Source: Owenia fusiformis (taxonomy: Eukaryota > Annelida > Polychaeta > Sabellida > Oweniidae). Taken from it: 64,000 nucleotides of DNA. The notes under the pieces were generated by a model. That model did no database searches. It saw only the letters and a list, made by a program, of their open reading frames with translations, and had not been told where the DNA came from. Where the stretch lies: the NCBI GenBank assembly GCA_903813345.2, contig CAIIXF020000001.1, positions 37,543,366 through 37,607,365 of the forward strand. Reading direction: 5' to 3'. Made by a program: the position numbers and the translations under genes. Positions 16,801 through 61,100 of the stretch are shown here, piece by piece; positions within the stretch are counted from its first letter, which is position 1, and every line of letters begins with the position of its first letter.

Positions 16801-19800
16801 AAATTGAATGATGCACAAATGTGTGAAATATCAGGGAGTAATTATTTAGAATGACAAAGATATTAGGAAAATGCAGGGTTTCCAGTTTTTTTGACCACCC
16901 TGTATATACTAATCTAGTAGTCTTTCTCCTGAGATGAATGCAATGAGTTCTTAGTCCTTGGTAGTACTGTCCTTATTATATGAACACTAGAATTGTCAAA
17001 AGAATGACGCTATTTGCCACAGGTATTGGATGATTAAAAATGTACTACATACTATTGAAGGCATGTTCTATTTTCACGTGTCAAATCACTTTTGAAATTG
17101 AAATAGAATTCAAAAGCAGGCATGCAGGTGTTTTTGTAATCTGACCTATTTCCTAAATCAATTTCACCGAACCTAAACTTAACCAGTGATGAGTGACTTT
17201 TCATAAAGGAAAGGACTCGTTTTTCTCAGCAAACAGTAAGATTTACCTGGCAAATTCAAAGTATATTCCAACTTAAATCCTTTACGACGAGTTTGACCAC
17301 TAGCATAGTCACTTCTGAATAGTACAACGGCCTCATTGTCCTCAGATATCATAGGTTTTGGATTTTTGTCTAGTTCACAACAGAACCTTAAATAACAGTA
17401 TTATCATGTCATTTGATGCACATAAATACCGGATATTGCTGTTGTCGTTACCTCTTTCTCATCAAAATAAAACTAAGATTACAATAAAAAATGTATTGTC
17501 TATGCTTCCATTCACTTATACCAATGGATTGTTGTATGGTTAGGATAAATTATAGTATCTCTTATTTGTTATGGTCCATTCGTTACCTTGGGCCTGCGAG
17601 ACCCAGCTCTTTATTGTATTTTATCTCGACCCAATGATAACAAACATCACGTAAGCAATAGACGTTGAAGTCGTCCACGAATCGCAAAACAATTTTGCAG
17701 CCTTTTGGTGCCTGTAAGTAAAAGTAAGAATATACCCGTAAGTAGCTTGGTCGTTAATTAAATATTCAATGGTAAAACATTAAAATTAATAAACTGAAGT
17801 ACACCATGCGTCATTTTAGTACAGCCCTGGCTGCATACAGGGTGGGAAAAACGTCAATATTTTTTATTTGGCAATTTCTTTTCATTAGCAAGAACCGCTA
17901 TCCATCTACATATATCGATATACATATGAGCTGATATCAATGACATTTAATGTGTGGTGTTTTGATGACATCGCAGCTAGAAATCATGACCATGCGCGCG
18001 GTATACATTGATGAAATGGCTTGCTTATTCTTAAAAACACCTTAATGATTGGATTTTCAATATGAACTCGAATTACAGCACATTTCGATTCAAATTCAGC
18101 ATCTTCTATCCTGTACTCAGGATGAACAGACCAAGTTCAGAAGCTTCAAAATTGTTTGAAATAAAGAGGTGTTTTGAGAAGTAATAACTAGGTTTTTATG
18201 TCTGTAAGTGCATTATACATTTATACCATCTGGATCAAATAGGAACCATAAATACCTATAAATGAAATTGATCTCCGCGTTAAAATTGCATATCTCAATA
18301 AAAGTTTTGCGCTGGGACTTGAAAATCTGTTCAGATCTACGCCAACACGCATGCACAACTTTTCAACAGTGTCAAAATTTGGATTTGGATTGTAATGAAA
18401 TAGACTGTACACGCTTTTTTCTTATTTACTTGATTTACGTGATTAAAATGTAATATTTCCACTAAGCCAGATTATATTAGAATGATGACTATATATTTTG
18501 AAGGCATTCTATTATGAGGCATTTTAAAAGTTTATTTCATCCAATGAGAATCATTACAATGTTATTTTTCTTCGATTTCTCCCAAACATTTTCAAAATCG
18601 ATTTCATTCGCCACAATCTTGGCTCAGAAGCATTTTACAATTTCAACACATCCAATGGGAATCATTAATGTTATTTTTCTTCAATTATTTTCACAAATAT
18701 CTTCAAAGTCGATTTCATATATGTGTTATCCATGTAATGAAATACTTTGCATAACTATATATGCATATACGATATAACACATAGCTGTATCCTCCAACAC
18801 AGAGATTTAATTAACACTGTAGAAGCATCACATTTTTGAAACTGCACCAAAATGCTTCGATTACCTTTTAAATGACAGACAACAAAAATGTCATACAAAA
18901 TATTGTTATTTCGATGTTTAAGTCGGACCCGCAAATATTTGGTATCCTCCAAATATTCAAATATCATCTATGCACATATCTGATTTTGTATTGTTGAAAT
19001 CCAATGTAGTATTCAAATGATTGTCATATGAATTCTGAATTACATCTAATGTGTTTGTAAATTGCATCATGCGTTAATTATGTGTCGGAGGATACACATA
19101 TTTGACAAATCGTAAAACCATTATAAAACGTATCCTACTTTATTTATACGAGATATTAACAACCCCCCTTTCGAATGTTCACATACATATCTTATTACAT
19201 GTTACCGAATATCGACGCAGTTGATGTATTATGTTATGTAGTCCGAATTTATAGGTTAAAAATAAGCATTGTTTTCAAAATATATCTCATTATCATGTTT
19301 AGCAGTTGTGTTAGCAACAAAATGTCGTTAATGTAAACAAACATGTTGCAGTCTTGAGTACATTAACAACATTTGATGTCAATTATCGTAAAAAGACCCA
19401 GATACACTCACAATGATTCTCCAATTACAGTGCTGAAAATCTTGATAATGGATTGGATAGTTTGGTGAGGTTATTGTCTGGACATCTGCGGTAGCATGTA
19501 AGAAGCCACTGCATTCCGCTGCCGTAAACAATAAAGATGCATGTTAGTTCAAGATAAGCTTACAAATTATCAAAAGAATAGAAAATGTTTGATTTACTTA
19601 TTGTTATCATATCTTATTTATATTCCATCGTTTTACCTGGTATTCCGCTCTCGACACCATTACAATACCTCCCTCCAAAACCATCAGGACACACACACTG
19701 TTGACAGTTATTCGGATCAACATAACCGCCCCATTTACAACTCTTACCAACAGGCAATGGTCTGCAAACCACTACAATGTGAATTTTGATATTCGTTTGA

Positions 19801-22800
19801 TATCCAAATTATTGAATATGACATCATTCCGTAACTGAAGACAACATGGATCTACTCAAATCTTGAAGATGTAAATCGCCTTGCATATTGTAAATGACCA
19901 ATGACTCATTTCTAAACTATATTATGGACTGTTTAAACATCGAGTTTCAGTTTAACAAGATTAGATATCTTGAGAACGATCTGTCAAACATTTAAAAATG
20001 AAGAGTTTTACTAGGGCCGATCAAATAGTTTCTTACCGTTGGCTCTCGATTTTATAATAAGAGGAGATGGATTCTCAAACCTAAACATGAGAAAGGATAA
20101 TACGTTTGCTTGAAACTGTACGAGTTTCATATAAATTGGTTTATTGGTAGTGACACAGAGTCAATGCATATTTTCAATGACTAGGTCAGGTGGAGCAGCG
20201 TTATATATAAAATATCAGCTGAGTTGTGGTTCTGGAAATTTACTGACATCGTTTACAACCTCTCATACGAAGGCCTTGAACTTGTGTTTTGGATTGGGTA
20301 GACATATATATAGGAAGTGCATTGCAACTGCATTGCATTGCAACTGCATGCATATTTTGAAGGAAAATGAATATTAGCATAACAACTACTTTAACATGAT
20401 TACTACTACAGTCCATTGACAGATGACACTACTTAGTGTTAGAAATTTCCAAAACAGCTTTTAGTACAATTCTTATATGAAAAACGCTGCTCCACCTAAC
20501 TTAATCATTGAAAATGTGTTTTGTCTCTGTGTCACTACCAATGAACCAATCTAAATGAAATTCAGACAGTTTCAAGCAAACTTATTACCCTGTCTCATGT
20601 TAAAGTTTGAACACGTTCAAAGTTATGACCTCTGCCACACGGGCTAACTTAATTCAGATTTGAGCTGTACTGTAATTAGAACAAAATAGAACTTTTGTTT
20701 AATCTTACATCCGCAATATGCAGTATTTGCAGTTTTAATATCAGCGAATGACAGCCCCGTCCTCTGTCCCATAGAGCTCTGGTAAAGGTCGTCTAATGCT
20801 TTTATTGTAATGCCCTCATTTTTACTAAACGCCTAGGAAATGTTAATTGAAAGATTAATGGTATTATTTGTATTATGTATTGCGTCAAATCATTGATGTC
20901 ATCATACATCCATACGCGACTCGCTTTTAATGTATTGTTTTTGCTTCGTAGTGGGCATCGAGGGTAGTTTTGCAGTGATACCATTTTTGGGACATTTCCA
21001 TTTTCTACGTCGGGCTACTTTGATTCAAACATCAATGATTCCATCATCAATGAAAAATACTACAATAAATATAGATTCAAAGTCATCATACTATTCCGCT
21101 AGAGGTGTGTCATCGACTCTATTGTGAAATATTAGATTTCATTAAATCTATATTCACACATTACATAGATAGGCAAGGTGTGTCTGATTCAAGCCAATCC
21201 GAACAGAGTATTCACATAATGAACAGTGTGTGAAAAGAATTTAAGTCCAAGACTCAATGCACTGTAGCTGCTTCATTCCACTCAGATGTTGTTTCCTAAA
21301 CTTTGCATTATTTCCCCTGCGGGGTCATGCAAAGATATGGAAACAACATCTTCGTGGAATGGTTCAGCACATAATGCATGGAGTCCGAAGCTTAAATCTT
21401 TAAGCATCTATAGCACTAACGTACTAAAATTGACTCTGTATCAATTAATTTGTGCTATACATTTATGAATTGCATATCTAAGAATACTAGAATATAGAAT
21501 TTCACTAATTAATTGCACCTGTCCAAGCATCTATTCCTTCTACGAATCTAAACAGGGGACAATTTATCATATTAATATCTGACTTTTGTAATGATTTAAT
21601 TGTATTCTATTGTATTCGACATTACGCAATAAATAGTATTGAAAAGGGAGACATGTGAGACAAAATGTCAAATGCTGTAATGCCCTTAATTGTAATTTCT
21701 AATCACATGAATGTTCATAGAAGGTGGTACAATTATTTGTAAGCAAATCTAGAACAAAGACAATTATATGAATTTTTGAATTCAAATATAGCAAAACTTC
21801 TTTCAGGCCCATGAACAAACGAATGACTCATGCGATATATTCTACCGACGAGGACAATGTCAATCGACAACAAGTTATAATTCATGCAAATCATGCGAAG
21901 TGTATTTCAAAAGTGAATGTGGTACCTTGCCATGATAATGCATCACAGACGAATAATCATACTCGACACCATATGCCTCACTTTGAATATCCGGCACCTT
22001 TAGGAAATTATTTTCTTTCATAGCCTCTATGTTGCCAGTGTTTATCCTCACCTAAACACAATGAATGACAATGCAAAGGCAATACAGTCCAACAAAAATG
22101 CGTTCAAATTACAACATATTACAGCATATGCACATATGGCCAATACTCATTAGCAACATTTAATTTGTATGAGTGTGCCTGCCCTGCAAACTCTCCAAAA
22201 ACAGCATACTTCTGTCTTCCAAGCCAGGCAGCGTCAAATATATGGTACAAGCAAGCAAATACAAGGACACACAGCATCATCAATCACTTATGACATGCAT
22301 GTCTTGGCATATGCTTCTGCATGTCTGCCCAATATGATACCTTCTGATGGTAGTGCATCACTGATCCATAATCGTAAGGAACAACTAATGGTGCTACAAA
22401 CTTTGACGGGGTCTTCTCAAAGTTAGAAACAAATTTCTGCTCTACATTTCCTAATCTTATCTCTACCTGTAATGGTAAACGATTATTTTGCAACGTTGGT
22501 ATCCAGCTTTGAAAAGTAACTTATTCTAAAAGGATAATGTGTTGTTAAAAGGAAAAGATGAGTACAATCAAATTGTCATTAATGTTTTATAATGCTTTTT
22601 TACATAATTAGTACTATGCCTTGATCATTATGATAATTAACTAATACATAACTGTTTGCTCATTTGATATTTGACATATAATGTTTTATAATGCTTTTTT
22701 ACATAATTAGTACTATGCCTTGATCATTATGATAATTAACTAATACATAACTGTTTGCTCATTTGATATTTGACATTAAACATACTTTATGTATTTGCAA

Positions 22801-25800
22801 TGAATATGCATCATTTACATGTAGGTCCACATTATTTCAATTTTATAGTTTTATAAGTATAGTACTACGACCAAGGCCATTTGTGTCCAAAACACCTAGA
22901 TTCAATTTGACTTTAGATTCGTGTAGGGGACCCCATCTAGTATTGGTTAAGTTATGCGTTAAACTGTGAGCTGTGCTTCTCTATTTTTTATTTGTTTAAA
23001 CAGTGTTATGGTTTATGTTGGTGTCATCAAATTATGTAATAGATATGTTATTCACGATTTGCATTTACTTACAAAATGATCTCGATCAGGTCGCGCTTGT
23101 TCATGCCAAAATCCCAAAGCGTGTCCTATCTCATGCTCCAATGTACCTGGCTTAAAACATAGGATAAAGATATTCAATCTATTTTCAGTTAATTTCTAAA
23201 TCGTATTACGTTCATGATTAGAATTCTTACTTTCTCTATTAATATAGCCTAAACAGCTTGTTAACCTTTCCATAATGTTTTCCATATAGACCCATTACCA
23301 TTCTTATCACCTGGTTTCATGCTTCAAATCACCATTACGTGATAATATCACATTACCATCAATATTTAAAGACATAAACAAGTAGTCGTCAGAAAATAAA
23401 AACAACAGCCCATTCGTTTCTCTCCAAAAATTAATTTAGACAATAAACTAAGATAACTAATAAATATAAACAAATAATAAGAAAATTGAATGAACGACCA
23501 CTTTAACATTATTCATAAAATCATTATTTCTTAAATCGTTATTTAAAAAATTGGAGGTGCGCATACATTCATACTTATACTCATATTCAAAATTATCCTC
23601 GAATAGAACTATTGTATCGCGTGCACTGCGTATTGCATGATATGTATATTATTTGAAAGTTAATTTGTTCTCATAATATGTACCAATATAAACTGATTGG
23701 ATATGATTATTCCAAACCTGCTGATATGATGTAAACTATTTATATATATACAGGGTATGCCAAAAAAGTACCATTCATAACATTATGGTATTGACATAAA
23801 AAGATTTAAAGAAACTTGAGGAGAGGTATATTTTACCATTCAAATACTTAAGCTAATACTGACTTCAATTTTTTTCATTAGATCTTTGAATATCAATGGT
23901 AAATGGTTCATGTGTCCTAAGATTTACTTACTACAACATGCGATCAACAATAGCACATTCATTATATTCACTTTCGAGTGCAAGCGCTAATTTAGCTGCC
24001 ATTTTAATTTAAGACATTTATGATATTTTTTATAATTTGTCAGGATCGACTAAAATCTAGATTTTGCCTACTAAGTTTTGACCATGGAATTCATGTATAT
24101 TGCTTTGATTTGTATTTATAAAACTGATGTAAACCAAACCTTATCATTCAAAATTAAACTTTTTAAAAATCTTTACTTGATTTGTCGTGTTGATTGTTTG
24201 AAATTGTTGATTGGAGGCTAAGATGGAATAACAGAGAAACAGCCTTGTAATTAACATTCTGTAATATCCTCTTAACTTTCTTCATTCATTTCACCACTCT
24301 GTTCAAATCTTTGTCCACTTTGTGTTTTCAACATTCATATCTATTTAAAGAGGACAGCACCTTACAGATAGTCAAGAAATCATTTTTACTCTAATAAACT
24401 CAAATTCGATCCAATTGCCATGAACGTTCAACTTACCATGCTACCTTTTGTTTGTTGGTTCGGACTTGTTTGTTGGTTGTACGGGTTGCTTTGTTGTAGT
24501 TAATAAGTTAATAATGTAGTTGATCGTATTAATTGATTGATTGGGTAGCCTGTACGTGGCAGTTTCAGAATTGAAGCTCCGAACTTTTACAGTTTACAGT
24601 ACACATCGATAGGAAGCAAAATCACATTACTCTAAATGTGTTTTGTTTTACTTTGGTACGTTTGAAAAACTAAAAAGCATAAAATAAAAGCGGAAGCCTA
24701 ATATAAATTACATAAATCAACATTAAACGTCCATTCCTAATAGGGACAATAACTTCGCTTAGTTATAGGAAATAAATATAACTTTTTGAAAGATATTAGA
24801 ATATATAAAGCAAGATATTATCTCCTGACCTGTTCAATGCAACTTTCTGCAAAATTGACAGGTTGCGGAATTGTAATCCGTTGTCGTCCTATGTATGAGA
24901 AGCACTGCCTGTGTAAGTAAACACAACTCTAGAATTAGAGACCGGGGCTTATTGTCGGAAGAACAACATCATGTTAGCAGCCCCCCCATCTTAAATATAA
25001 ACCATGTCTTAACAATGGCACACATTGTTTTCGTTTTTGTCAAGTTACGCATATCATACACCATCAGACAACACAACATAGAGTCAATTTAGACAACAGT
25101 ATACACATTGTACATACTATATGGTTTGTATTCGAGAGCCAATGTGTTATTTTAAAATCATTCTGCTATGGCACGGTGTCCAACCCAAACGCTCTTAAAC
25201 GCTCCGTCGTGCATGTAAGAGCGTTTGGGTTGGACACCGTGTATGTGCTATTCTAATGTCGATGTATACTCCTGCTGATCAATTCAAAATATATGTAAAC
25301 AACATACTTTTAAATACATGATGCGAAACATCATGGCTCTCACACACAGTTTTGTTATATTGGTCTAGAAAACATGAACTACGAAAGAGCCACGGACAAA
25401 TGATCAACTCATCACCAATGGGTGGAGGGGGGGGGGGGTATATCCATATGGTTACACCTTGAATATATTTTGTGCCAATATAACATAACGTACGACGATG
25501 TAGACTACAATATCAAGAAGCCTAAGATTATTGCATACGATGATAACATCATACCGCTGCTATGCACCTATCTTCAAAATTAATTGGTTGTGGAACGAAT
25601 CGTCTTTGACGCCCAATGTATGAAAAACAACCCCTGAAAATCACAATACATCTAAACGTTCTGGCAACGAATTCAGGATTCATTGACATGAGTATTAGAC
25701 AGAGTTGGCCAATGTGTATATCTTCCATCCACACTGACTAATACAGAAAGAATACAATATGATCTATGGCAACTTACGGATCTAGATTAGTAAACGATAT

Positions 25801-28800
25801 AAATGGTGACTTGGGATCATCATCTCCAACGGATAACTCTTTAAATCGTACACATGTTGTATTTTCCCATTTATAGATGGCCTTACGAATAGCTGCCTTC
25901 CACCTCTCACCTAGATAAATGTAACATGAACATTCATTGGGACTATCAAGGCTCCGCTGACATCGTGAGCAATGAGCTCATGTTAGAAGCGGGGCCTTGA
26001 GAGATATGATAAAATTGAAATATTAAATTTACTATTGAACTTTACTATGTGAAACTCAGTACAACTTTATTTCATAGTACACCGACTATTTCATTTGTAG
26101 GGCAGCGACGTTTTTCAACTATAACTATTTTTTATCATAGCTCTCAAGCCCCTCTTCTAACATGAGCTAATTGCTCGAGATGTCAGCGGGAACTTGCTCG
26201 CGATATACGGGGTCTGGATAGTCACAGTGACATTGAACTATACTTTAGTCAGTTGAACACTGTCTACCAAAAAGAACGACAGCAAAATTCTTGATTTAAG
26301 AATTTTTCACCAAATCTCAAAGGACTGCGAATTGTTTGTAGAATGAATCTATGAGATTTTTCATGCATTTCGCTTGTGTTTTTCATCTAAAAACATCAAT
26401 ACACTTTAAAACATTACAAGAATAGAACTTCGCCACCGAATAACGCATTTAATGAGAAAAGAACGCAGTTCAAAACTTCAAACGTCTTAAAATAACGTTT
26501 GAAAACACACTTGACTTTAACTTGTATGATGCATTATTGCAAGGTGCGAAGTTAGTGATCACAACAAACGGCGTGCAAAATAGACTAAATGCGAGTAGAA
26601 AATATCTTGATTTATGTCATTAAATATTCAAATGTAGTCAAAGTGATATCATATTTGAAAACTACATATACACATCATGTGTATATGTAGTTTTCATGTC
26701 ATGATACATGTTAAATTACATCTAGAAATGTGGTTCTAAGAAGTGTTTATCAACTTTGAAAACTTAAAATGTTCTTTGAAAATGTGACTTCGAGGTTGGG
26801 GAGATTCCCCTATATACCATGTTATAAAATTGCAAAAGTGAAATATATATATATTTTATATTGGACAGATAATATTTTCTTTTACTGAAAAGTGAACCAC
26901 TAAAACTGAATAATATTCAATTTTAATTGAACTTTCTATATAATACCATGCTAATACTACCCCAAATTATCCACCTGGTGGTGGTTTTGTGCAGATTATT
27001 CAAACATTTTAATGGTTATTGATAACCACAGTGTCGAACTAGAAAAAGCATGTCCATAGTTTGAGACCTGCAAACCGTTCCCTTAGAAATATGAAATGAT
27101 TGATATCAAGGTTGTGTACGATTGGCATCAATGATAATTAATACATTATATTATTTATATTAATATACATCACAATGATTACCTGTTTTCCTGCCTGCTG
27201 TACTTACCGCCGTTTTCTGGCATATAGTTGAACTTATATTTTATTGGAAACGTCCATTTACTCTGTTTGAATATCTTAAAAGGTATAACTTTTCTTTTTG
27301 GTCTGTTTCGATGTTTGCTTGATTTGAGTGTTTCTTCTATCATTGTAGCTTGCTCTAGGCTCAGGAGAATATCTCCGTCATACATCATATTGTCCTTATC
27401 CAATGCATCCTAGACAAAGCCATATTTTTACAAAAAGACCTGTACTGTGTAGCAAATGCCATATTGGATTAGAAGATTGAGGTCGCACAATACACAAAAC
27501 TACACATCGTCCAAATCAGTCTAAGCTATCGTCATAAAAAATACAATCAGATAACAAAGGAAGGATTAAAACGGCGAAGAATCTCAAGATTTCACACCTG
27601 AGATGCCAATCTATTTCTGAAAATTATCAATTATCCTAAAAGCTAGGCATTTTGTATGACAAGAAGAGTACAATACAAAGTACAGTTTTCTTTCCTACGC
27701 CATCTTTTAAATATTGAAATTCTCATTTTATTTTATGTACCATCATAACGATCACAAAGGTTTTTTCATTATGAAGTTATTAAAATAATGCAATTGATGC
27801 TAATGAGGCATATGAGATTATCCAATATTGGATATAGACTTTTTATATGCACTTTTAAAACCATATTCCCTCTGAATTTTCATCATAATGAGAGTTTTTC
27901 ATGTGATTTTAAGAGATTTGCACTTTTTACCTCGAACGACTAACTTTTCTTTCTTTTTAATAGCATATTTGAATTCAATTTTCCACAATAATAATTTCCC
28001 ATAAATTAAAAAAAACTTTGGCAAATCTCTGGCATTGATGGAATGATTACATCAATTCACTTCAATGTTAAAAGCTTGCAATAGTCACTTACAGGGTGTC
28101 CGGAAAGTAAAGATACAAATACTCTAATTTTAAGAGATTTAGTGTTTTGGTAATGAAAACGCTACAGATTGTAGAGGAACTACATTACAATACATCTACC
28201 AACTTTTATAACATATAGTCTAAATCTGTTAAAGTTACGGTTGTCATGGTTATGATGGTGAGGGGTATGCGGAGCAGTTCCAGGATATCGCTAAATTGTG
28301 ATAAATTGCTCAAATATAACCATTTGAAAGAGTGTTTATTATTGTATTTCTTATCAGTTTTTTGTTTTGTTCAATACTGTATTTTTACTGCCATAGTATT
28401 CTCTTTAGTATAACGATATCATTGATACATATCAGAACTATGTAATGTCACAAGTATAATCAAAGAAAAAGAGCATATAAGTGCTTAGAAAAAGGGTCCC
28501 TGGATTAATAGGAAAGTCAATAGTGCATCTCCACAGTCAATGCACAAAGCAAAGAAAACAAATCTTACAATTGAATGTCTTGACATTAACCTTTTTGTAC
28601 AATGGTCCACATTTCCCTGATAATGTCCCGTTGAACTTCTACATTAATGAATATGTTCCTCAAATATGCAATATTTGTGAGAAGTTCAACATAAAAATGA
28701 GACTCGGCTGGAAGCCAATGTTATCAGCAATCTTAGAGACTGACAGCAAAGGTTTTGTCAGGTCTTTGAATCTCCGGTCAAAATACAAAAAGAATGTTTA

Positions 28801-52100: not shown

Positions 52101-55100
52101 CTTCGATAAAGTGGAAAACAAGATTTCCCATGTTATTTTCCCATAGGGAAAACACATGCGATCCATTGCTTTCAGCGAATTTTGGTCACCCATAATGGTT
52201 ATCTTTAAAACCCCTGAAGGAATTACTTGTTCTCTAAAAGTGTTAATTGTAATTAAAAAAGCAGGGGTGGAAGGAGTTGAAAATCAGGACAACATTTCAG
52301 AAAAACATGTGGATGGGTTGTTTGCATCTACCCAGTCTCAAGGTCAAAATTATTTTATCATCCCTATGAGTGCTTTACCTGAATGCATTGGACTAACATA
52401 TGCACCTGTCCGAAATCTGTTGCGATACTTTCCCTCCTCCTTTGGGAAAATCATTTCTTGATTTTTGGTCGCTTATGGCACCCCTGGTGTCAATTTTAGC
52501 CTCAAACTAAACAAATAAACATGATTTTCAATTAGATGGTATTAGATGAATTGTTCATGTTTACACTTGGGTATTATTTTTGGCCCACTCTATATACCCT
52601 ATAAGGGGTGAATTGAGAAATAGATAAATAAAAAAAAATATATATCATATTATAAGAATTACTCGATAGTAAATTGTGGCGCCAACTTGGTTAACGGGAT
52701 GAAATTGTCTTTCTGTTAGAATATAGGCCAAAGGCTTTACGAGATTCTTTTTAATCATACATGCCTATATTTAATATACACTCCCCTCCATAAGTTTGGC
52801 AACCCTTTTCCCCCATTGAACTACGTGTTAAAACCTCTTTACGTTTGAATTTTTATTTACTTAACCCGCGATAAAATAACTTATAATATTGATGGAAACG
52901 TAACTTGACTTTATTTCCAATACATCCAAATTTTCTCAATTTTTTCCTCAATTACAATAGGTCGAAAATTGATGATAAATTTGATGAATTTTTGAAAATC
53001 GTCATTCCCATGTAATCCAACGGGAAATGAAGGGTTCGGGGCAAATCAGAAATCAGGATATCTTTTCAGTAAAAGATTCAGCAAAAATATTTTTATATAG
53101 AAAATTGAATTGTCCAACTTTTTTGAACACTAAGTGTTTAGTTTATTTGATGAATATTAAAAATACAGCGCTTCAAAGTCATTTTTGAAAATAATTTTTC
53201 GCCTCCTGTGTTATTTCAATGGACGAGGTTTTTTGAAAAACAATTTTGACTTTCAAGCCCTATAACTTTGTTGAACCTGAAGAAACATATCAATTTTTGT
53301 TAAATAAAGTTAGCAAATTCAATTGCCTGCCTAACTCGTATTTTTTGCAAGGACTCGGATGGATGGATATTCTGTCATATGACTTGCGGCAAACCAACCA
53401 TTTCCCATTGGTTAACATGGGAATGTCGATTTTCAAAAATTCATTAAATTTATCATCAATTTTCGACCTATTGTAATTGAGGAAAAAAATTGAGAAAATT
53501 TGGAGATATTGGAATTAAAGTCAAATTACGTTTCCATCAATAGTATAAGTATCTTCATCGCAGGTTAAGTAAATAAAAATTCAAAGGTAAAGAGGCTTTA
53601 ACACGTAGTTCAATGGGGGAAAAAAGGTTGTACATCTTTGAAATCATATTTCATATGCTACATCCAAGGATGAATACATTTCGAAAAAGGAATGACGATG
53701 GCGGCCATATTGTTAATTTAGGCGAAAGATGGAAGGCAGCTATTCGTAAGGCAATTTATAAATGGGAGAATACAACATGTATACGCTTTCAAGAAGTACT
53801 CGATCATGAAGAAGAACCAAAGTCACCGTATATTTCATTTACTAATTCACAGAGGTAAGTAACCGTAATATGTTTGGGAATCTAACATATAATAACATTA
53901 TACTCATTCATTCTGTACCCAGGTCTTGTCCTACCAGTTCTTTTTTCTTGATGTTGAACTTGTCTATCTCATATTCGGTACTGCTTAATGTCCAATACGT
54001 ACATGCTTCCATCGTTATCAGAAATATAAATTACAATCGTGTAAATATATCCTAAAACTGATTTGATATAGCCTGTGTTAGTCACAATAACTGAACACTA
54101 TAATATTGTAACGACAAATAAAAAAGTCAGTTGTATAATGATTTGATGCATTTTCTGCAAAGGTATTATAGACAGGTACCAATTTAATTAATTCAAGTTT
54201 TTGAGGCATTATTTTAGAAAAAGCGATAATGTTGATAAAGATATTACAAGATGAAAGCTCAACTAGGTGGGCATGACACTGATTTTTAGCGTTTTTACTC
54301 CCATGGGAAAATATTTTAGGGGGTACTATGATATCAATTCATAAATCAAAAGATATATTACTGTTCTGAAATCTTCAGCATACAATCTTAGTACAATTGC
54401 TAGTAGGCTAATATCTTTGTTGGTCTCAGAAAAATACAATTAATAGTAACAATTTTTGTCACAATGCTTGTCCCATTTTGTCTTGCCAATTTTATATGTG
54501 TAACTTCAAGCAAAATATGACAGCTTTAACAACTCAAAGTAGTATTCTAATAACATTTCGAGCTATATGTGATATTATCAGTTATTATACGTTTCAGCAT
54601 GTGATACCGAAAATATTCCAAGAAAGTAAAAATTGTATCACCACGAAAGTGCAGCTTGAGTATTAAATCAAAACAACAATATGGATGTTTTGGCCCAACA
54701 AAATGATTGTACTGTATATACACTATAAGATAATATTCTTATATTTTTGCAAACACTAGTGTCTTGGAATACCCATCATTTTCAGTGGTTGTTTTTCATA
54801 TGTTGGACGTCAACCTAATGTAGTGCCACAACCAATCAATTTTGACGACGGCTGCTTGAATTCGGTATGATGTTGTTATTATATTTTAGCTTATTTTTTA
54901 ATGTTTTCTGACATCACACTGATTTTTGTCTCTGCAACTTTTTTTGGCAGAAAATATCATTTTTAGTTCAAAAATGCATAAAAACGTCGGAACTGGCTGA
55001 ATATGTGAAAAATTTATCCATTTAGGCTAGAAAGGGTTAATTTGCCCTACCCCAAATACGTCTAACTTTGCCACTGTGTCGTCACAAATCTAACTTGACT

Positions 55101-58100
55101 TTCTCTGAGTTTATTGAAGAAAATGATACGTCTAACAAACAGCTTTCATTCCATATAGGGCACACATTCTACTAAGAATTGCATCATTGACTAAATCTAC
55201 GACAAAGGCCCTATGTCCCGAGGATTTTGACTGAAATTTGGCCATTTTCGCCCAAATCTAAGTAAATAGCAGTTTCCCCCACAGCTGTATCTTGAAATAA
55301 ATATTGCTACAAAGTAACAATTTAAAAATCACACATGCATACTGTTTCTGTTGGCCTGACACGTGTATCTAGCCTGTAAAAATGAAAAATCGCTACATTA
55401 TAGCAATTTCAGTGAGATATGGGCCCTCAAAATCATGTAATTTTAGCAAAATTGAAGAAATAACCTGCAATTTTGACGGAATTTCAGGGGACTTTCTTTC
55501 ATTTATGACCCTCCACGGGCCTCTTATGACTATTCTTATACGCACAGAAGGGTTGAAAGTGATTTTAAATCATTGTTTGCCCTACGCAGCAGGGGCGGAT
55601 CTGGGAACCAACAAGGGGGGGGGGCCCAAACTTGTGGGCTGAGAAAAAAAACGTCCGAAAAAAATTTTGGGCCCCAAAAACCCAAAAGTGGGCCCAAATT
55701 TTGAAATTTTGAGGCCCATTTTCTTCAAAATTTGGCCTAAAATTAACAAATAAGGCCTTACAAGGCCAATTTATGACCAAAAAGGCCTACTTTTTGGGGC
55801 CTTAAAGCCTTTTTTGGCTCAAAATCTTTTTTGGGCACAATTTTTTTTTTCTGGGCCCACCCAAGGGGGGGGGCCCGGGCCCCTGGGCCCCCCCCCCCAT
55901 ATCCGCCAGTGCGCAGAACGAAAAAATCGATTCTGTTCTCAAATTCTGCTAGAATATTGGTCTCTAGCCAACTAGCAGACAATTTTAAGCCTCATATTAA
56001 GGTATGAGTACCGTAATCCAACACCAAATTCGAAAATTCAGAACAATACTTTGCACATATGGCGTTCCTGATCAACTATTAAACGCTTACCCCCATAGTG
56101 TTATACTGTATATCAAAATGTACCTGTTCATATAGGGGTTCGATTGATCCACATCAAATTATAGTGAGTCAGGTTACTTTTTGAGATATCAGCGTCCATT
56201 TATTGTAACTCGCGTTTGCTACCATTTCCTCAATTCTGACATGACAGGCAAACGCGTAGTAAACATGCTCACGTCAGAACTATTTTTGACCTACATCGCT
56301 ATTTTCGTAATTCAAATGAAAGTTGAACTCATCCTCTTTATTTTGATACCCAATTGTGGCATACTAGGTACCCTAGAAGCCAACTATGGCGTTATTTAGA
56401 ACAAAACCACAAGTTTTTAAATGGACCTTTATTTTTCAAATTAAAAAAGCTTCATATTTTTTTTAATTTATTTATTAAAGAAGCTTCACATTTCACATTT
56501 TGATAACATCGGGTAAGACTACAATACTGTATAAGCCAAAGTGGGTTCAACTTAAGTGGCGCAACCAGGATTTTGATAGCAGGTACGCGAGGCAGAAGGC
56601 CTAACAAAACTGCGGGTCCGGGGACATCCCCCTCGGAAAATATTTAATTTTGTGTTTAATTGAATGGACTTTATTTCCATGAAAGTACAAGCCAAAATCA
56701 TTAGTATTTACAAAGTTATTTTACAAAAATTGGGTGGCATTTTTTGTGTAGAATCCATGTCTGTTAATTTAAAGGAATGGACGGCATTTAGACCCAATTT
56801 TGTAACGCTCATAAACTTTAACCAGCTTAAGCTACACATTTGAAATTTCTTGAGATGCTTTTGCATTATATCTACTAATAGACAACAAATAATGTAACGT
56901 AAGGTGGGTGTCATTATCAATAACGCAGATGCGAGTAGGTAGTTACCAGTTTCACCACCAGGTGGCTCGTTCGGGTCAGATAGCATGGCGGGTATAGTAG
57001 AAAGTTCGCTTTAACTTAAATTACATCTGTTTTAGTGGTTCAATTTCCATATAACCTTTATGTATTTAATAGTTAGGCAAGTTAAGATATGTCCAGTAAA
57101 AGAAAATGTTATCTGTCCAATACAAGAAAAGATATTTCACTTTTTGTGATTTTTTAACATTGTGTCTATGGGGAATCAACCCGAACTAGAAGTCACATTC
57201 TCAAAATTATTAAATTTTCAAAGTTGATAAACAATTTCGAAACTATATTTCTAAATGTACATTTACATGTAGATTTCAAATATGACATCACTTTGACTGA
57301 ATTTTTAATATTAAATGACGTAAATCAAGATTATTTCTACTCGCATTTAGTCTATTGATATGTCCATATGTCTATTTAAGTCTGGTACATTGGAACATGA
57401 GATAGCACACGCTTTGGGGTTTTGGCATGAGCATGCTCGACCCGATAGGGATCAATATGTAAGTAATTGTCCGTTATCCTTTTAAATTGCTGAATTACTT
57501 CTTATTCTGTATTACTTACTTCTTAAAATCAACTTCCAATTTTCCGCAATAAAAAATCAAATTTTGAAGAATGGGTTTCTCATTAGTTATAAAAGCGATC
57601 ATTGTGTTTAGGTAAGAATTAATTCCAAGAACATCGTAAAAACGTTAGAAAGCAACTTTCTGAAGGTCCCAGGAGTTCAAAGCGAGACATATGGCGTCGA
57701 ATATGACTATTCGTCTGTAATGCATTATCATGAAAAGGTAACGATAACACACTCTGCGTTTTTATACAGTAGCACAGTCATCTAAAACACTCAATGGTAT
57801 ACATTTGTCCAGAGTATAGCTGGATTGTAATTTTAACACAATATTCTGATATAGTTATTATTTTGTATAGAAAATTGATAAAATATAGGATAAAATGAAG
57901 TTTCCAGTTTCATTCGAGAATATTGCAGCTACGTATTTTCAGTAAGCCATTTAACTAATCGGTTAAATTTCAAACCAATTAATGACTTAAATTACATCCT
58001 GTATTTGACCCTTTGTATTGAAGATACGTTACTAGCGTGTTATTCATCCGTACTTTACAAATGTAAATCATCATTCCTTGACATTCCTGTGAAAAAATGA

Positions 58101-61100
58101 TGTCCTTTACTTTTGTATGGTCTTGTATCTACAAGTAAACCTAATTGACAAACAAAACTAAGCGAAGAATTCGAATTTGTAAATAACGTTTTGTTGAATA
58201 TACAGTACATGTGTTTTAAGTATTTAAAACATGGACAAATGTATACCATCGAGTGTTTTAGATGACTGTGCTACTGTAAAAAACGTCAAACATTGGAAAA
58301 GCAACGTTTGTTGGGCTAGTATCAGTTGATGCTTGACATCACATGAGTTTCTACAAGTGAACAATATTTGTGCAAAACTCGTCCGTTGTGTGTTCCGTTA
58401 AATAATTGAATGCCATCATAATCTCAACTTCTTCAAGAGACCTCTTGATTTCATACTCAACCGATTATAATAAATATGAAATGATATATCCTAGGCATTC
58501 AGTAACCAAGGTGTCACGCTGGTAGCTCTAGACGACCTCTACCAAAGCACCATGGGACAGAGGGTTGGTTTATCGTTTGCTGATATTAAAGTTGCAAATA
58601 TCGCATATAAATGCAATTGTAAGTTATATATATTTCTTAATATTCAACGTATCAAGTTGAAAAGCACAACAGCTCCAAGTTTTCATAGCCACTGGTCAGT
58701 ATCAAGCGAATGTAACGGCCGTTACCTTCGCATCAAAGATGGCGGGTAGCATGTGTCGATTTCGATATTTCTAGTTTTCATCGACTTAAACTTCGTTATA
58801 GGTGACGTAATGCTTGGGTATTTGAACTATATCAGGCATAGATGACATTGTAACTTTGGAATATTATCATTTGTTCATATGCCAAGCGCAGGCAGTTAAC
58901 CGATATTTTCCACCACTAAAGGAAGGTAGCTGGGATTTTGGCTTTACACATGAAAAGATAACTGATATGCGGTGATGCGGTAACGATATGAGAGCTTATA
59001 ATGGAGGGCTAAGATGTCCAGTAATTACCGTGTATTGAAAACGAACATGACCGTTACGGTATCATACGTTTCCAGTTACCTCCCCTTGAAAAATGGAAGA
59101 TATCGTTGAACTGTCGCGCCAGTCGCACAAGATATATGAATAGATCATCATCTTTCAGAGTTTCCATGTCAAATAATTAAGCCTCATTTGGTTCAAAAAT
59201 AAAAGCATAACGAGGACTATGCTTACTGTAATTACTGTCCGTCATCTTATATGCGAAAGTTACGGCCGTTACCTTGATACTGACCAGTGATAGATAGAAC
59301 TATAAACTGGGTCTATTTACTTTCTTTTGAATTTGCACCATTTAGTATAGTGAATTCACTTTCAAACATGGCATATAACAAGGTAATCAGACTTTTATTG
59401 ACGAAGATAGAATGTTTTCAATATCATAATGCGGCGCATTGTAACTGTCCGCGACTTGCGCTTTGATCCAAATAATTTGAGTAAAAAAGTGATTTCTGGA
59501 AACTGGTAGTCATATATACATGAAATATTTTTGGAGTCCCGAAACATGATTGTCAGATGTTTGTCCATATCTTTATTAGTTTTGTAGAAATGATTTTATT
59601 TGTCTCCTCCCCACCTAGATCTTCCCATTTTGCAGCTATTTTTTCATTTTCCCATCTAAATATTCCTATATTTTATAAAATAGTGTATTTATAAAATTCG
59701 CGTATACAAGTAACGGCTGTAGGCTACCAGATAGACATACTATCTAATTGGCAACTCATTAAAATATGATGTGATTTAGTTGGTCATAAAATTAGTAGGT
59801 TAATCTGGTAGCCGACAGTCGTTATTTGCATTCATGCATACAAGCATTATAGTTTACATACAAGTCATCACAATTAACATAATACTTTGGGTGGTCCCGA
59901 TATATACGTACTTTTAGATAATACTTATCATATATATAAAATGTGGCACCTGCATTTTTCAGGGAATTGTAGACCGTTACCTGTTGGTAAGAGTTGTAAA
60001 TGGGGCGGTTATGTTGATCCGAATAACTGTAGCCAGTGTGTGTGTCCTGATGGTTTTGGAGGGAGGTATTGTGATGGTATTGAGAGTGGAAAACCAGGTA
60101 CTCTAAACTACAAATTGTGATAAAATGTGTGTACACTATATATCAATTCTTAGACGAAATGTGCCTTTTATTGTAAGTACTTTCATTTCGATATTACACT
60201 TTATCTAGAGATGGCTTCAAAAAGATCCGTCAATATAAGTCTTTAAAAGTAGACCAGAGCTTTCATAAACAATACCACGTATAAGATAGTATTTTAAATA
60301 TGTTAAGTAATAAGTCCCTTGTGACATAGTGTTCAGTTGCATCCTAAGTGTTATTGAGGTCATTTTGACATTTTAAGGTCAAATCGGTACACATCTTAAA
60401 AGCAATTTTTTTGAGTGCAAAATCAATATGTATAAAACCCAAAATATGAAAATATGTAAACTTTTTAAACGTTTTTAAGAACAATTTGGATGTTGACCTG
60501 GACGTATGAAAGTAGGTCAAACATTTCAAAGTTTTGTTTCCGTTGACTTAACATAAGGATAACCTAAATTATTTAGGCGGATTTTTCAATAGTGTAGTTG
60601 TCTCATCAAAGGGTACGAATCGAGCGTGACAGTTGAACGTACGGTGTACGGTACACCACAGGGGTAATGAAATGTAGGCAAACATATGTTTCATCGTTTC
60701 AGCAAGATGTGGTCTAGTTTCTAGATATTTTTATATGTAAATGTCTGTAACAACATCCTAGACAGTAAGTTTGACGTTATATTTCATAGTTAAACCTACA
60801 CAAACTCCGAATGTAGTATACCAGCAAAAAACGTCCGATAACGGTAAGGAATTCGAACAACACAAGGAATTGGAATTTTCGTTATACCGTATCTTACCAG
60901 CACGTTGCATTGTATTTATACAGGGTGTTCAAAAACAGGACCGTAAGAAAGTTGAATAACTCGCTCAATTTTGCCTTGAAATCTCAGCATTACTTAGTTC
61001 ATTCAATGTGAATTGTGTTATGAAAGTTTGATTACAATATGCCAAAAACTACAGTTCCTTACAAAACATGCACTGTCTTGGTGGCAATGAGCAAAGATGG

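Follow-up and report, generated by a model that had tools for sequence, protein, structure and literature searches.

The window analysed here, the whole 64 kb stretch of Owenia fusiformis DNA at C1:37543366-37607365, contains two predicted genes for astacin proteases, gene A on the minus strand and gene B on the plus strand. The window is without N and has a GC content of 34.7%; the genome comprises 498 Mb in 525 contigs. Two exons of the catalytic domain of gene A, exons 6 and 8, are each present in two copies, and these lie on either side of a single exon 7 that encodes the zinc motif. Exon borders were re-derived from the sequence by reading the splice junctions directly, and all borders were re-checked. 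The exons are as follows.

27208..27409, minus strand: gene A exon 4, end of the propeptide with the YDGDI motif and N-terminus of the mature protease; placed by its junctions and the homologous gene B exon
25778..25910, minus strand: gene A exon 5, single, N-terminal subdomain; ends in phase 2, donor GTAAGT
25555..25633, minus strand: gene A exon 6a, 79 nt, phase 2 to 0, 26 residues; donor flank matches gene B exon 6
24830..24908, minus strand: gene A exon 6b, 79 nt, phase 2 to 0, 26 residues; alternative copy
23073..23150, minus strand: gene A exon 7, single, 78 nt; zinc motif
22341..22466, minus strand: gene A exon 8a, 126 nt, phase 0-0, 42 residues; divergent copy
21926..22051, minus strand: gene A exon 8b, 126 nt, phase 0-0, 42 residues; copy closest to gene B exon 8
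20709..20832, minus strand: gene A exon 9, single, C-terminal part of the catalytic domain
19634-19767, minus strand: gene A exon 10, counterpart of gene B exon 10
53722..53854, plus strand: gene B exon 5
54786..54864, plus strand: gene B exon 6, single
57381..57458, plus strand: gene B exon 7, single; zinc motif
57612..57737, plus strand: gene B exon 8, single
59967-60100, plus strand: gene B exon 10

A first-pass annotation of this DNA had claimed that gene A carries exon 6 twice (79 nt) and exon 8 twice (126 nt) around a single zinc exon 7. The coordinates, phases and splice sites bear this out, with GT-AG at every junction of gene A exons 4, 5, 6a, 6b, 7, 8a, 8b and 9, and the loop sequences quoted for both exon pairs are correct. 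The whole window was then covered by an ungapped six-frame scan. Exons 4, 5, 7, 9 and 10 and three CUB exons were found once per gene, after which only noise was seen. Exons 6 and 8 gave three strong matches each, two in gene A and one in gene B, and the remainder was noise, which confirms that gene B has one copy of each. The two genes have the same exon layout in the parts compared, except that exons 6 and 8 are single in gene B. The exons of gene A share one strand and follow each other in the expected order with compatible phases. The duplicated-exon layout in gene A is real. With just one copy in gene A of each of the eight other segments, the layout reflects duplication of two exons and not a tandem gene duplicate.

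The predicted products were examined for astacin features. Pfam Astacin (PF01400, cut-off 22.5 bits) recognized 4/4 predicted isoforms, which scored 184.3 (6a+8b), 182.3 (6b+8b), 181.6 (6a+8a) and 179.6 (6b+8a) bits. Exon 7 of gene A encodes the HEXXHXXGXXHE zinc motif with RXDRD. SVMHY, a Met-turn of the SXMHY type with the Tyr ligand, is present in both 8a and 8b. Both copies keep the Cys pair (exon 6), the Met-turn, the ligand Tyr and the YD motif, in agreement with the earlier statement that the catalytic and structural residues are intact within each pair. The region downstream of the catalytic exons matches Pfam CUB (63.6 bits). YDGDI in exon 4 resembles FXGDI, with Y in place of F; FXGDI is described as the astacin propeptide motif in the available part of PMC9848320. 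Given the downstream CUB match and the propeptide motif, gene A looks like a zymogen-type astacin (M12A) gene. The best-scoring relatives of solved structure were BMP1 and TLL1. Gene A shares the zinc motif, the Met-turn and a disulfide of the C64-C84 type with BMP1/tolloid, meprin and crayfish astacin. The zinc motif of gene B (57381-57458) reads HEIAH where that of gene A reads HEIGH, an Ala for Gly after the zinc-helix Ile.

The reading frame was followed through the possible exon combinations. The four that take one copy of each exon (6a or 6b with 8a or 8b) are all open across 181 residues. With both 6a and 6b included, translation would end prematurely after 95 residues, and with both skipped, after 52. 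Because both or neither breaks the frame, the predicted choice at exon 6 must be exclusive.

The copies in each pair were then compared. 8a and 8b are 51% identical in DNA and 48% identical in amino acids, with no indel in 42 codons, while 6a and 6b are 64% and 62% identical, respectively, over 26 codons. Differences at codon positions 1, 2 and 3 number 15/20/27 in exon 8 and 7/6/15 in exon 6. An open frame is by itself weak evidence, because in a separate simulation a copy stayed free of stops by chance with a probability of 0.08 for 8a and 0.26 for 6b. The weight is carried by the conserved family pattern. In the neutral test for this pattern, a sister copy was evolved without selection to the observed distance and scored on a profile of paralogs from outside the window, with 10,000 simulations. 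The exon 8 profile comprised 10 paralogs out of 13 loci, L001, L009 and L010 being excluded as broken or gapped. The exon 6 profile comprised three paralogs (L001-L003), and a weaker match at L010 was excluded. At full divergence 8a scored 61.3 against a neutral mean of -21.9, and 6b scored 63.3 against a neutral mean of 5.0; 0/10,000 simulations scored as high in either case. When divergence was split equally between the sisters (half divergence), 0/10,000 simulations reached 8a and 10/10,000 reached 6b. Given the identities within each pair and scores far above the neutral ones, the pairing is not accidental. The extra copies look protein-coding and under purifying selection at the protein level.

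The variable residues were placed relative to the cleft using numbering by conserved anchors, counted by hand from H149 and not by a computed superposition. In the available part of the Limulus proastacin report, the zinc motif spans H139-H149 and the Met-turn S194-L197, with Y198 as the Tyr ligand (PMC9629494). The same text has strand β4 framing the upper rim, C112-C131 linking β4 to the loop that precedes the active-site helix, residues 150-179 forming the cleft floor on the non-primed side, and residues 180-187 forming a flexible activation domain (PMC9629494). Exon 8 maps ungapped onto Limulus residues 160-201 of that description, with the Tyr falling exactly at 198. In this numbering 8a and 8b are identical at 9/20 residues over 160-179, 0/8 over 180-187 and 10/12 over 188-199. 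The corresponding values for 8b and gene B are 13/20, 5/8 and 12/12.

The available text on crayfish astacin lists S62-V68, Q76, G83-C84, Y101, D121-D129, F154-W158 and Y177 as the segments contacting the inhibitor fetuin-B (PMC6400186). Of those listed, D121-D129 lies in exon 8, where 8a and 8b are identical at 3/9 positions by either anchor. Of the contact positions within exon 6, 64-68, 76 and 84 do not vary between the two copies, while 63 (G/Q) and 83 (R/S) do. The β4-β5 turn and the residues around Cys84 also vary between 6a and 6b. F154-W158 and Y177 map to exon 9 and are constant across isoforms. Judged by the published structures, the variable residues near the active site would be the exon 8 activation segment and the exon 8 cleft-contact stretch. 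We predict that non-primed-side preference and zymogen activation would change more than P1' preference.

The intron flanks, synonymous sites and trees were used to examine the origin and age of the duplications. Flank identity with gene B was 16/20 at the 6a donor and 14/20 at the 8b acceptor, compared with a mean of 7.5/20 in eight comparisons among other pairs; the opposite flanks of 6a and 8b were unremarkable (11/20 and 8/20). Each of 6a and 8b thus shares one intron flank with gene B, which suggests that these two are the copies of ancestral type. 6b and 8a both adjoin exon 7. Pooled synonymous differences over eight exon segments were 0.77 within gene A versus 0.56 between A and B (p = 0.022), and with exon 10 excluded they were 0.77 versus 0.62 (p = 0.10). 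In trees from six data sets (exon 6, exon 8 and the two joined, each as protein and as DNA) no topology was rejected. 6a or 8b joined with gene B gave the best tree in 4/6 and pairing within gene A did so in 2/6, with small margins and one tie to the fifth decimal. The shared flanks, together with a synonymous divergence within gene A at least as great as that between A and B, would fit duplications that predate the A/B split, with gene B later losing its extra copies, and the evidence leans this way. The duplications had been thought probably specific to gene A. Gene B has a single exon 6 and a single exon 8, as noted at the time, but the flanks and the synonymous divergence lean toward the earlier date, and the trees reject nothing.

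Two further similarities between the genes were seen. Exon 10 is unusually alike in A and B, with a synonymous difference of 0.15 versus 0.48-0.73 in seven other segments, and the alignment ends at about the exon borders; either local gene conversion or strong constraint at synonymous sites could produce this. The intron before gene A exon 5 (26579-26887) is related to the intron before gene B exon 7 (57094-57356), with a local score of 209 against a shuffle maximum of 33 (n=50). Related introns that precede different exons could go back to a repeat that both genes contain, or to one of the genes having been rearranged.

A genome search with Pfam Astacin generated at least 142 matches (the best 150 of 211 candidates were scored) and at least 83 same-strand clusters (gap <6 kb). 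Among these clusters, duplication of the same segment inside one gene was found in gene A only, in a search that detects short exons poorly and could miss small-exon duplications elsewhere. Overlaps of 15-28 profile positions were counted as alignment spill-over. Several candidates were discarded. The second match at C1:11.13 Mb (L011) reads as a spurious extension of exon 9 through an intron. The locus at C7:26.56 Mb (L014), checked in sequence, is two whole genes in tandem. At C6:12.80 Mb and C9:25.86 Mb ∼6 kb separates the matched segments, which were interpreted as tandem genes from coordinates alone. The exon 6 peptide has 6 genome matches, namely the two gene A copies, gene B and three paralogs at C1:9.46-9.49 Mb (L001-L003), which have the closest exon 6 motif. 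In two of these, L002 and L003, a single stretch matches exons 7, 8 and 9, apparently without introns, which would mean that intron content varies strongly within the family.

Our preferred interpretation, which we consider likely, is that gene A is an astacin gene with two tandem pairs of alternative exons flanking the zinc exon, from which up to four enzymes could be made. Both neighbours of the zinc-helix exon would have been duplicated in tandem and then retained as alternatives. A transcript would include one of 6a and 6b, exon 7, and one of 8a and 8b, and the zinc site, the propeptide and the C-terminal CUB region would be common to all isoforms. The choice at exon 6 would alter a turn and a disulfide-bonded loop above the cleft, and the choice at exon 8 would alter the non-primed cleft floor and the activation segment below it. 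A wrong choice at exon 6 would self-destruct by frameshift, while the choice at exon 8 would need splicing control. From the sequence we infer use of both copies, an exclusive choice between them, and an effect of this choice on substrate preference or zymogen activation. It is possible, if doubtful, that the two pairs form a combinatorial switch of substrate cleft and activation segment, with the ancestral-type pair 6a+8b and the divergent pair 6b+8a co-selected by tissue or stage, in which case one locus would stand in for a small family of proteases.

A number of observations count against this interpretation. At exon 8 the frame gives no constraint. 8a and 8b together are in frame and open (223 residues), as is a transcript that skips both (139 residues), and we infer exclusivity here where the frame does not impose it. 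The mutual exclusivity first proposed for both pairs is supported by the frame for exon 6 and is less secure for exon 8. The upper-rim strand CFSYIGRQR is the same in 6a and 6b, so the predicted difference in the cleft rests mainly on exon 8. Of the original proposal of four proteases with the same zinc site and different clefts, the part that concerns exon 8 is retained, as this exon differs near the cleft, while the part that concerns exon 6 is weakened. The acceptor of 8a is the least pyrimidine-rich of the seven measured (0.50 versus 0.59-0.68) and 8a lies on a long branch in the tree; for these two reasons it could be a rarely used exon. After itself, 8a best matches 8b at 27.0 bits (48%), the C5 paralog at 26.1 bits (36%) and gene B at 25.7 bits (45%), and is thus nearer to 8b than to the C5 paralog by a slight margin only. 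Duplication within the gene lineage is the simplest reading for both copies because of their position, phase and length, and sequence alone is no proof of it for 8a. The search for a mechanism of exclusion belongs with these points. The intron between 6a and 6b is 646 nt long with an AG-free zone of ∼18 nt, and that between 8a and 8b is 289 nt long with an AG-free zone of ∼94 nt before the acceptor. Steric exclusion is unsupported by these lengths and zones, the branch points not having been directly examined. Competing intron duplexes were no better than 40 shuffles in 6/6 intron pairs (first 650 nt per intron). A hairpin between 6a and 6b was rejected as a splicing switch because it is a dispersed repeat.

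Other explanations of the locus were weighed. It is conceivable, though unlikely, that only 6a and 8b are used, as in gene B, and that 6b and 8a are spare copies still open by chance. 6a and 8b are indeed closest to gene B, both in their sequence and at one of their intron flanks, and the long branch and poor acceptor of 8a would suit a spare copy. However, 8a and 8b differ at 49% of bases, yet 8a has no indel or stop and keeps a family pattern that no neutral simulation matched at full divergence; 6b gave the same simulation result. Recent copies would also be less divergent than 8a and 8b are.

Alternatively, the exons may be alternative without being exclusive, such that joint inclusion of 8a and 8b adds a 42-residue tandem repeat and joint inclusion of 6a and 6b acts as an off switch through nonsense-mediated decay. 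The early stop in the 6a+6b product fits this scheme, as does the in-frame 8a+8b product, which still matches Pfam Astacin as two stretches. We regard it as improbable, since the fold cannot accommodate two Met-turns and two activation segments, and we know of no astacin in which the Met-turn or the activation segment is doubled. Least probable of all is that the extra copies are part of another gene, or of a tandem gene fragment, whose exons lie among those of gene A. Tandem clusters of astacin genes do occur elsewhere in the genome, as at C7:26.56 Mb, but exons 4, 5, 7, 9 and 10 and the CUB exons have no second copy within gene A, and the strand, order and phases of the gene A exons are those of one gene. 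If gene A does choose between alternative exons as we favour, regulation by splicing factors and, for exon 6, decay of frameshifted transcripts are the options that would remain for controlling the choice.

The introns of gene A contain several repeats. The hairpin between 6a and 6b (25172-25241) is an inverted repeat with 31-nt arms that are 94% complementary. Its arms match the ends of dispersed repeats genome-wide, with at least 79 matches (the best 40 of 828 candidates were scored), and at least three of the matched places are pairs in opposite orientation ∼1.2 kb apart. These pairs suggest that the hairpin derives from the terminal repeats of a DNA transposon, present here as a fold-back remnant. 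Another inverted repeat, with 49-nt arms that are 86% complementary, lies in the intron before exon 5 (25947-26196). In the intron between exons 7 and 8a (22580-22776) a 98-nt segment occurs twice in tandem with 100% identity, which points either to a duplication of very recent date or to an artefact of the assembly. Weak donors were also considered as a mark of alternative exons. GTAAGT is found in none of the four variable exons, nor in exons 9, 10 and CUB, and is non-diagnostic.

The unc-32, Dscam and myosin systems encode transporter, adhesion or motor proteins. In the available sources on C. elegans unc-32 (two clusters), insect Dscam and muscle myosin heavy chain, tandem internal exons are alike in length, frame and sequence, as in gene A, and one is used per transcript. 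More than one exon cluster per gene is already known from these sources, for example in unc-32. Gene A differs in that its two clusters bracket the zinc-site exon of a predicted extracellular protease and in that exclusivity is predicted. The available part of one prediction study uses length, splice sites, frame and homology as criteria for mutually exclusive exons, and reports that 26/65 predicted internal exons on the fly X chromosome were already annotated (PMC3228551). On the criteria given there, both gene A pairs qualify, with lengths of 79/79 and 126/126 nt, amino-acid identities of 62% and 48%, GT-AG borders and matching phases. The human KHK tandem pair resembles gene A in that the exchange concerns a segment next to an enzyme's active site, in KHK adjoining the ATP site, and in that both copies keep the catalytic residue, according to the available text of PMC9741552. 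The same text states that in human the regions exchanged between tandem exons tend to lie clear of the binding sites of small ligands (PMC9741552). As described there, KHK has one pair and is a kinase, whereas exon 8 of gene A itself carries the Met-turn and the zinc-ligand Tyr.

BMP1/mTLD splice variants differ C-terminally. No exchange of catalytic-domain exons was found for BMP1/tolloid, meprin or crayfish astacin, and no astacin with mutually exclusive catalytic-domain exons was found, in the literature searched (open-licence papers, partly by title or listing). The class of splicing is known; its placement around the astacin cleft was not found described in that literature. A well-made pair of alternative exon clusters in the catalytic domain of a protease is probably real at this locus. 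If so, the exchanged exons would directly border the catalytic centre, unlike the trend for human tandem exons in the part of PMC9741552 available.

New specificities of proteases arise mostly by gene duplication, and this genome has at least 83 astacin clusters. If the preferred interpretation is true, with the cleft varied by exon choice and the zinc site and other domains constant, the isoforms of gene A would form a natural matched set, in which the effects of the cleft floor and the activation segment on specificity and latency would be measurable one segment at a time.

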